Positions 59,984 to 63,347 of a stretch of 64,000 nt of DNA are shown here, in pieces (the stretch's first letter is position 1; every line of letters begins with the position of its first letter). Under the pieces are notes generated by a model. It saw nothing but the letters and a program-made list of their open reading frames with translations, was not told the DNA's origin and searched no databases. The DNA comes from Ectocarpus siliculosus. Taxonomy: Eukaryota > Sar > Phaeophyceae > Ectocarpales > Ectocarpaceae. The translations under genes and the position numbers were made by a program. The DNA lies in the NCBI GenBank assembly GCA_000310025.1, contig FN649728.1, forward strand, positions 1,598,277-1,662,276, written 5' to 3'.

Positions 59984-62005
59984 ATGGACGAGAGTGGCAA
60001 GCTGATCGCTATCATCGGGGACGAGGTATGAGAGGAGCCAATGGGCAAGCAAGTCTAGGTTCTGTTCTCGGAGCGGTTCTTTGCAGCAGCTGCTGCTACA
60101 GCAGAGTAAAGCAGTAGTACAATAGAGGTCGCTCGAAGGCGGCTTGTGCTACTGGGTGGGTGATATTTCTCGGTTGTTGATCGTTACGCGAGACTCTTTG
60201 GTAGCCGCGCTACTCTCCCTTCATTGTGGTTCCTGCTGAACCTCTGTGCACTTCTCTATCTCACCTGAACCCGACGTTTTACTCCGCATGTGTACGAAGA
60301 AGCATCACAGCAGCAGCAGGCGCCTCCGCGCTCCGCGTGCTGCTCTGCTACATCAGTACATAGCAGCATCTCTCCGCTGTTGTAGGCTATGCTTTTTTCA
60401 ATCGCGAGGGTTAATGGCGTATGCCCGTGCCTACAGTTCAGCCAGAGCTCATGGTCGCTGATCACACCTAACGCCATCTTGTGTATAGGACGTAGGCAGA
60501 GCCGAGCACAACACACACAGCAGGCAGATCTGGTGAAGTTTTTCCTAGATCCGACGAATATGTCAACCCTACGGCCCTTAACAGAGGGTAGTATTACGAA
60601 CGCTAGCTGACACACACGCTCAAGTATGCCTGGGTCTCTTCAGGATGTGGCTGTATCCAACCTTTCTGATATAGAAGTATAAATATTGCGCAACGAACGC
60701 TATGTCGTTGCTAATTTCCCTCCCTCAGCACTCAGCGCAGGTCAAGAAGGCACCGGCAACGGGGACATTTTATGCGGATGTCAACGAGCAGCAATCATAT
60801 GTGTTTCATCTCTACTGCGTCGGTCAGTCATTCCGTTTTTTCCTGGAGGAACACGCCGCTACACACAAACGAATATTCTTCTCAACACCTTGCCACCATC
60901 AGCCGGGATGTGAAATCCACACGTGGCCCTTTCCAAGCCCTCGATGAATGCGCCGCGCGGGCCGTGGACTTTCGGGCGGCCTGACAGCACCAAACCTGGA
61001 AACATCGTGCTGAAAAGAAGGCGTGCAAACGGTGTGCTATCATGCGGCTGTTTGTCGTCCGCCCCCATGCGTGTGCGGTGCGCTCCTTGCTTGACCTCTT
61101 GGCGTTGGCAGGACACTGTGACCGGATTTTTGTTGGCGGGAGTGGGGCACCGTACCGTCAACACAACAAATTTCCTCGTTGTCAAGAACGGTGAGAATCT
61201 GCATTGTTGGCGTTACAGATGAATTCCTTGAGTCCGTACGCACCTGGGGGAAAGCAAGCAAGTTTCGCAGTTGTGTTCATCCTTCAAACGTTGATGGCCC
61301 GCTCCTGCGCTTCCCGTCGTTGCTTTTTCGTTCACGGACCGCAGCAAGTAGCGTGTTCATTGACCCAAGGACCGCTCGCTGTGCTTGATCAACGTTGAGG
61401 CTGCATGATTTTTTTTGGCGAAATCGTCTCTCGTGTGCGGCCGGCCGGCCCCCTGTGCCTCCAACGCGCAGACACGACGGTCTCGCAAATCGAAGACGCT
61501 TTCAACCGCCTCACGGCGAGGGATGACATAGCGATCGTGCTGATCAACCAGCACGTTGCGAACGAGATCCGTCATCTCCTCGGGAGCTACTCCAAGACCA
61601 TCCCCACAGTGCTAGAGATTCCCAGCAAGGACGTTCCGTGAGTGCTGGCATGCGATGTTGTAGTGCTTCCATGTTATTGTGTTGGTAACGATGTGTCGCT
61701 CGTTGTCATGATTCTACGATGTTTGTGTTTTGTCTAGACTTCGGCAGTCAAAGCACGGCGTGGTATCATTTGTGTGTACGGTTTAGACAAGACTGCTGTT
61801 AGACGAGACCGTGCATTTGGCTCTTTGGGAGCAACCCCCCTTTCCGCTGCCCGTCGCTTTGGCTCGACCTGCCTCCTGTTGCTGCTCTTACGTTCTCCGG
61901 CTGTTTTTCGTCGATCTGAACTTGTGTACGCTGCACAGGTACGATCCCGAGCAGGACTACATCATGCAGAGAATCAACATGATGCTCGGCGCCGGACAAT
62001 CGTAA
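59984..62005 (+). CDS. ATP6V1F: V-type proton ATPase subunit F, 4 exons, 117 residues
   Basis: Component of the V1 central stalk of the vacuolar proton pump on endomembranes, coupling ATP hydrolysis to rotation. Exons: 59984-60025, 61112-61190, 61472-61637, 61939-62005; all junctions are GT-AG and phases agree. The protein opens MDESGKLIAIIGDE, equivalent to the animal GKLIAVIGDEDTVTGFLL start, continues DTVTGFLLAGVG, then IEDAFNRLTARDDIAIVLIN and PTVLEIPSKDVPYDPEQD, and ends in an arginine/methionine helix. Length 117 against about 119 in animals, so complete. The first ATG was chosen because it gives the family start. The frame is also open upstream but has no earlier ATG. The first intron is about 1.1 kb. 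It is transcribed divergently from AP2A. Confidence 0.95.
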
Positions 62006-62372: not shown

Positions 62373-62570
62373 GCAATTACTATCGTCATGCTCTCACTCT
62401 CTCTCTCTCTCTTGAATACATCCCCCCTCTCTTTCTCGGGGTTGTGTTAATACCGTTGTTGGGTCAGAGGTGCAATTATCGCCATGCTCTCTCTCTCTTT
62501 CTCCCTCTCGTGAATATATCCCCACTCTCCTTTCTCGGGGTTGTGTTAATACCGTTGCTAGGTCAGAAGT
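62373..62570 (+). repeat. Two tandem repeats of about 99 bp
   Basis: Units at 62373-62471 and 62472-62570, each opening GCAATTA-TATCGTCATGCTCT-like, passing a CT tract and closing with TCGGGGTTGTGTTAATACCGTTG followed by GGTCAGA. A third unit starts (GCAATTTTCG) and breaks off. Confidence 0.85.
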
Positions 62571-62687
62571 GCAATTTTCGGTGTTTCTCCGGTCCTACCC
62601 GCACGGATGCCCTGAAATGGTTGAATTCAACTCAATTGTTTCGTTGCCGTCGTTCCAGCACTGCCCGACTATCATCTTGGAAAGATT

Positions 62688-62897: not shown

Positions 62898-62934
62898 TAG
62901 TACAGCATTCGAGGTGTACCCTATGGAACGAATA

Positions 62935-63016
62935 TTGTTAAGATGTACAGCATATCCACTATGCTACAAGTCAGCGCTGACTTGTAGCATAGTGGATATG
63001 CTGTACATCTTAACAA
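62935..63016. repeat. Perfect 82-bp palindrome, no loop
   Basis: Arms of 41 bases, perfectly complementary, with centre TCAGC|GCTGA at 62975/62976. Capable of a cruciform on DNA or a long hairpin on RNA. Confidence 0.95.
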
Positions 63017-63247
63017 AAGTACAACCGGGGTCCTTCAGCCTGCTAAAGCTGTTGGACCTCGGTAAACCCCAGGGTTGTAATCCCTGTAACCAGCGCTGCC
63101 CGCATGCGGTTCATCGACTTACAGGGCGGGAATATGTGTCTTCACTTGGACGACTGGAATGTATACCGTCTTTCAGGCCTATCCCAGACTTTTCCGGGAA
63201 AAAAGCGTCACAAGTGGTCCCAGAGGGATTCGGCCCCCGGTTGTATT

Positions 63248-63331
63248 TTTGTTAAGATGTACAGCATATCCACTATGCTAAAAGTCAGCTCAAGACTTTA
63301 GCATAGTGGATATGCTGTACATCTTAACAAA
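63248..63331. repeat. Near-perfect 84-bp hairpin with short loop
   Basis: Arms of 35 perfectly paired bases followed by a one-base bulge and a short AGCTCAA-type loop. The arm sequence equals that of the 62935-63016 palindrome except near the centre. Confidence 0.95.
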
Positions 63332-63347
63332 TATTCTTTGAGCCAAC

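Follow-up and report, generated by a model that had tools for sequence, protein, structure and literature searches.

The window analyzed here, a stretch of 64,000 nt from Ectocarpus siliculosus, contains two long palindromes which we interpret, with a probability of roughly 0.72, as the terminal repeats of one short non-autonomous transposable element. The left palindrome, positions 62935–63016, proved to be loopless and perfect over 82 bp, as a preliminary description had claimed, with zero spacer and 41-nt arms identical at 100%. The second hairpin, which had been described as using the same arm, was likewise recovered; with its outer arms fully extended it spans 63248–63331, with 35 nt paired around a 14-nt spacer, and the gap from 63016 to 63249 measures 232 bp. 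Aligned as direct repeats, the two hairpins are 90% identical over 83 nt and lie 314 bp apart from start to start. Aligned as inverted repeats, 62935–63033 and 63232–63330 are 90% complementary across 99 nt, so that about 15 nt (AAAGTACAACCGGGG on the left) extends the terminal repeat inwards on both sides. When folded as single-stranded DNA, 62935–63016 reached −44.2 kcal/mol (shuffle mean −7.7, z −18.8) and 63249–63330 reached −38.1 kcal/mol (shuffle mean −6.8, z −15.1), values attained by 0 of 200 shuffles in either case. Since the outermost bases, T at 62935 and A at 63330, are part of the AATAT target duplication, the element's own terminal palindromes measure 80 bp. The end sequence of the element family is TGTTAAGATGTACAGC, and the features of the window copy are collected in the Table.

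Table. Features of the element in the window (positions in the window)
Feature	Positions	Strand	Remarks
Left target-site duplication copy, 5 bp, AATAT	62931..62935	.	
Whole element, 394 bp, TGTTAAG...CTTAACA	62936..63329	.	Ends common to other copies; empty sites at three sisters
Left terminal hairpin, perfect loopless 80-bp palindrome, two 40-nt arms	62936..63015	.	
Left terminal repeat, inverted extension AAAGTACAACCGGGG	63016..63030	+	Complementarity of 62935–63033 and 63232–63330
Interior	63031..63234	.	Interior search query was 63018–63248
T6 run, candidate pol III terminator, downstream of B-box position	63199..63204	-	
B-box position, GGGCCGAATCC in the window copy, 2 mismatches	63226..63236	-	
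Right terminal repeat, inverted extension	63235..63249	-	
Right terminal hairpin, near-perfect palindrome, centre altered	63250..63329	.	
A box TAGCATAGTGG, right hairpin inner arm, 44 nt before B-box position	63270..63280	-	
Right target-site duplication copy, 5 bp, AATAT	63330..63334	.	

The surroundings of the element include an exon of V-type ATP synthase subunit F at 61480–61638 on the plus strand (PF01990, E 7.5e-15), about 1.3 kb upstream, and two imperfect repeat pairs of 51–52 nt, 96 and 99 bp apart and containing CT-rich runs, at 62381–62580, also upstream.

Copies of the arm and of the interior were searched in a genome with 492 contigs and 189,456,909 bases in total. When up to three mismatches were allowed, a 30-nt pattern from the arm matched 72 places (38 forward and 34 reverse), whereas its reversed control matched none; the four arm copies of the window are among these 72 places and are thus not due to chance. 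With an 18-nt arm pattern and up to two mismatches, 111 places were found against 8 for the control. The interior query gave 31 matches, the window counted in, with all 31 candidates scored, and a 461-bp query gave at least 115 aligned pieces when the best 40 of 87 candidates were scored. The common unit of about 400 bp with target-site duplications, for which the preliminary description had proposed a genome-wide search, was recovered, and the lack of any other genomic copy, which had been named there as an argument against a mobile element, is not what we observed. Two exact arm patterns had no match in the viral contigs searched, a collection from which near records are possibly absent. Two further kinds of locus were seen by eye. 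At L096 (C10:654400–655300) the start of the arm is followed by other sequence that ends in CA and a repeated 5-bp flank, TATGC, and another element sharing this end may be present here. In L025, L030, L014 and L042 the right hairpin is lost at differing interior points, and the sequence at the break itself seems to match the 5-bp flank on the left.

The window copy is flanked by a duplication of 5 bp, and we asked how regularly other copies are. In 23 copies, which were chosen by their canonical-looking ends with the flanks already seen, so that the delimiting was not blind, the flanks matched at 5/5 bases in 11, at 4/5 in 8 and at three or fewer in 4 (L043, L044, L056 and L060); L013 scored 4/5 because its fifth base is N. 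Mispaired flanks, by comparison, matched at 5/5 in 0.6% and at 4/5 or better in 2.2% of 506 comparisons. The count drew on 61 family loci (L009–L063 and L095–L100), 33 of which remained undelimited; the uncounted loci have one end, unclear ends or rearrangements. One copy absent from this set, L052, scored 3/5, and its inclusion gives 11, 8 and 5 for 24 copies. A separate group of five further copies, whose ends were placed with the flanks in view, showed 5/5 in four and 4/5 in one; the group takes in L053 and L058, the latter with its start re-placed (1/5 with the former start). When duplication lengths were compared in a 22-copy run (with L052, without L015, and with end coordinates of L029 and L061 that differ from those in the 23-copy set), flank identity at 5 bp was 0.755 against 0.246 for mispaired flanks, and no comparable signal appeared at lengths of 3, 4 or 6–9; length 5 alone stands out.

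Sites lacking the element were found as well. When the flanks of 14 copies were joined and used as genome queries (best 40 of 208 candidates scored), those of three copies aligned across the junction to other places: L029 to places on C7 with a spacing like that of tandemly arrayed units, L035 to dispersed repeats and L010 to a single paralogue. Of these paralogues, two, four and one were read, respectively; they lack the element and have a single 5-bp site, which differs by one or two bases in L091 and in L093, the paralogue of L010, where AACGG stands for GATGG. The remaining 11 copies returned only their own flanks. Taken together, these results show that the element family is multi-copy, with TG...CA ends, 5-bp target duplications and uninserted sites, and the foldback- or MITE-like reading offered in the preliminary description is supported by the copies, the 5-bp duplications and the empty sites. 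At L010 (645–1032), both the flank and its paralogue read ...GGTAAG at the insertion, which is possibly an exon-intron border.

Ten of the 23 delimited copies are lone hairpins. Eight of them lie between flanks that match at 4/5 or better, three at 5/5 (L061, L095 and L099) and five at 4/5 (L047, L049, L054, L055 and L062, the last being a cluster of arms), and two, L056 and L060, have no matching duplication (2/5 or less). An insertion site can therefore hold just one palindrome, which would be either a solo terminal repeat produced by recombination or an independently inserted unit. A more radical reading, which we consider unlikely, is that the true mobile unit is the loopless palindrome of about 80 bp, a gene-less and two-ended minimal substrate for an integrase-type enzyme that would insert alone or would carry DNA as a pair.

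The perfect symmetry of the left palindrome had been taken to imply recent origin or active correction. Across 23 distinct hairpins, the two arms carry 47 and 57 substitutions, most of them unshared between arms, and 10 substitutions were common to both arms of a hairpin, compared to 2.1 when arms were re-dealt (0 of 10,000). A pair count on the same alignment found both sides changed in 8 pairs, against 2.1 in shuffled data (0 of 500), and 2–5 such pairs when the alignment was slid by 1–3 columns. Three of the 10 arm-common changes sit in rows shifted by indels (L009 right, L044 and L045); without these rows 7 changes remained against 1.9 (6 of 10,000), and after the further removal of arm positions 8 and 11, where several copies are changed, possibly as subfamily variants, 3 remained against 0.8 (306 of 10,000). 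In L016 the two hairpins differ by a change that one of them carries in both arms and the other lacks. Because the signal shrinks without the shifted rows and the recurrent positions, the symmetry of the window copy is best read as youth or as a constrained source. Of the two explanations in the preliminary description, recent origin is thus the more probable; the data are weakly consistent with some arm-to-arm correction at most.

The observations above are probably best explained by integrase-type insertion of a non-autonomous element, whose DNA copy would be made by reverse transcription or by excision. The TGTTA...TAACA ends would be joined to target DNA, at a stagger of 5 bp, by a helper of the integrase clade, most likely an LTR-retrotransposon integrase supplied in trans, which we slightly favor. 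A palindromic terminal repeat would present an outward-facing end on both sides; a lone hairpin could then be a complete substrate by itself, and two hairpins would bracket and carry the interior like a miniature composite element. No helper with these arms was recognized among the arm matches listed and the loci read, up to about 4 kb on each side of lone arms and judged without a reading-frame search. The region upstream of L037 was considered as an autonomous copy and was rejected after a look by eye at the frames of L064.

The right end of the element contains sequences resembling a tRNA-type promoter. On the minus strand, in the direction from the right hairpin to the interior, the A box precedes the B-box position by 44 nt in the window copy, L016, L017 and L018 and by 45 nt in L015, so that all five copies examined have a spacing of 44 or 45 nt. 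Among 19 right ends picked by hand as a wider set, 6 yielded an A box, with a spacing of 44 nt in four, 45 in one and 51 in one; its absence from the other 13 is partly explained by arms that are deleted or lie outside the examined stretch. The B box, GGTTCGANNCC, was perfect in 9 right ends, had one mismatch in 4 and two mismatches in 4 (window included), and was missing from 2. A run of 4–6 T residues follows the B box in 12 of the 19, starting 12–31 nt after it and at 22 nt in 8 of the 12. Best tRNA matches were tRNA-Thr(TGT) for L017 (score 16, equalled by 1 of 300 shuffles) and tRNA-Thr(AGT) for L018 (score 15, equalled by 0 of 300), the two copies on which shuffles were run. As for an intact tRNA gene, ARAGORN found none in the window or in L009–L047, and RF00005 gave 13.5 bits on a short stretch of L010, against a gathering score of 29. 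We infer that some right ends carry a putative tRNA-derived promoter, from which RNA polymerase III may transcribe from the middle of the hairpin inwards. In the course of this analysis, five tRNA hits at C17:5797970–5798443 (G000), near the end of C17, were found to have the same spacing as five hits at C295:27664–28137, four of them with equal scores, which suggests organelle DNA that was transferred to, or misplaced in, C17.

Integrase-type insertion has two sub-cases, RNA-mediated and DNA-mediated, and the probability given for the main reading is divided between them. The RNA-mediated version, which we regard as a serious possibility, holds that the family is a TRIM-like (TRIMp3/Helenus-like) LTR retroelement with the 80-bp palindrome as its LTR and the lone hairpins as solo LTRs. 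It is in keeping with the TG...CA ends, the 5-bp duplications (4/5 or 5/5 in 19 of 23 copies), the 394-bp size, the presence of solo terminal repeats and the direct repetition of the termini over 83 nt, which, being palindromic, are equally inverted. The tRNA-type boxes of some copies also lie in the terminal region, the A box in the hairpin and the B box in the interior, and TRIMs with no LTR sequence in common with their helper are allowed for in the sections consulted of PMC10886601. A further point in its favor is L011, the longest delimited copy: its length of 1,270 bp is due to roughly 863 bp of copia-type gag located between interior and right hairpin. Positions 1–863 of this fragment are matched at 93–97% in four other places, and positions 226–863 at 96% in one more; L011 and L067 have CTTTTG in common at the left joint, and a frame of L067 scored above cut-off for zf-CCHC and just below it for the copia gag family (24.9 vs 27 bits). 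This capture could have occurred by template switching in a retrotransposon particle, or by DNA repair.

Several results speak against the RNA-mediated version. Primer-binding-site matches to tRNA were 7–8 nt in three of four stretches and no better than in shuffled sequence, in a comparison that covered 15 distinct tRNA genes of only 8 amino acids; the right end of L010 matched tRNA-Val over 11 nt (1 of 200 shuffles as good), which we read as a self-complementary T-loop. No polypurine tract was seen by eye, and CCCCGGTTGTACTTT or close variants adjoin the hairpin from either side. The terminal repeats are palindromic and extend inwards as inverted repeats, features that an LTR does not require; the hairpins of L016 differ; and the T run that 12 of the 19 right ends have past the B box should make RNA polymerase III stop before a full-length RNA is made. 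If transposition were RNA-mediated, the first half of the LTR would be the reverse complement of the second, an arrangement that did not turn up in the literature search, in the parts of the sources it covered.

According to the DNA-mediated version, a tentative reading in our view, the family consists of MITEs of a Ginger2/TDD-like integrase-related transposon, with TIRs of about 95 bp whose outer 80 bp were made palindromic, and the lone hairpins are minimal two-ended units. This would fit the 99-nt inverted repeat, the failure to find a primer-binding site (15 tRNA genes) or a polypurine tract (by eye), the differing hairpins within L016, and the combination of TGTNR ends with 5-bp duplications as in TDD-4 and TDD-5 (PMC2836005, sections consulted). 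The traits expected of such a MITE, namely TGTNR ends, TIRs and target duplications of 4–5 bp, are shown by the family. According to the same sections, TGTNR ends are found in Ginger2 and in most Gypsy elements, and 5-bp duplications in TDD-4/TDD-5; duplication lengths of related DNA transposons and LTR elements are treated in PMC10045372, also consulted in part. Against the DNA-mediated version, the loci read and the matches listed included no long element in which these arms accompany a transposase, and L011 holds a retrotransposon fragment instead.

A microRNA-like hairpin RNA gene is highly improbable: Rfam microRNA models do score the hairpins, but every hit was below the gathering score, several fell on both strands, as expected of a perfect hairpin, and the unit is multi-copy with insertion duplications. 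An assembly or library artefact from fold-back reads is more improbable still for the window copy. L034 and L040 are indeed mirrored around the hairpin, over 171 and 275 bp per arm, counting the hairpin, beside N runs, and L013, L032 and L051 have N adjoining the hairpin; the window copy, however, has distinct flanks on each side, an AATAT duplication and two unlike hairpins, and other copies carry their own changes and duplications. The duplication of one arm by misassembly, an alternative mentioned in the preliminary description, is thus unlikely, since separately decayed copies with their own duplications show the same structure. The larger mirrored stretches centred on the hairpins of L034 (607–686) and L040 (600–677) may stem from fold-back reads at the ends of contigs, or else the hairpin may have seeded genuine inverted duplications there. 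The five hairpin loci with nearby N (L013, L032, L034, L040 and L051), counted with no background gap rate, suggest that the palindromes may break assembly; hairpins that border assembly gaps, or mirrored junctions that may be false, constitute a practical hazard. A SINE moved by a LINE was ruled out, as the duplications are all of one length, and a parvovirus-like rolling hairpin was rejected on consideration alone.

Long perfect palindromes are normally unstable. Palindromes that form the ends of a mobile family therefore provide a natural test of how a eukaryotic genome tolerates such structures and how they spread in it, as well as of the least DNA that an integrase-type enzyme requires in a substrate. 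The unusual trait of this family is that each end of the element is a hairpin which is also found alone at other insertion sites.

Among known systems, Mutator elements generate duplications of 8–11 bp. Foldback elements and MITEs such as Tm1 (Mutator/Foldback; PMC3169594) resemble the present family in their inverted terminal repeats and foldback structure, but here each single terminal repeat is a palindrome and the duplications are 5 bp long. Ginger2 and TDD-4/TDD-5 share the TGTNR ends, TIRs of similar length and, in TDD-4/5, the 5-bp duplications; according to the sections consulted of PMC2836005, they encode an integrase-like transposase, and Ginger2 prefers AT-rich targets, whereas the element described here has no transposase, has palindromic ends and occupies varied target sites. 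Cassandra TRIMs are miniature elements whose terminal repeats carry a pol III promoter, comparable to the putative one here, but theirs is derived from 5S rRNA, and palindromic LTRs go unmentioned for them in the consulted sections of PMC10886601. No MITE of this kind, with a palindromic LTR or a tRNA promoter, was found in the literature search, within the parts of the sources it covered. The closest described system is Helenus/TRIMp3 (Kojima 2024, PMC10886601, sections consulted): both are short and non-autonomous, boxes A and B of tRNA-like type lie at the terminal repeat in Helenus and in some copies here, and Helenus/TRIMp3 likewise shows 5-bp duplications (in fungal and plant families) and solo terminal repeats with 5-bp duplications. 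The LTR of Helenus contains the tRNA-like stretch, its interior has a primer-binding site and a polypurine tract, and palindromic LTRs go unmentioned in those sections; the Ectocarpus element differs in its loopless palindromic repeats, in a B box that lies inside, and in that neither a primer-binding site nor a polypurine tract was found.
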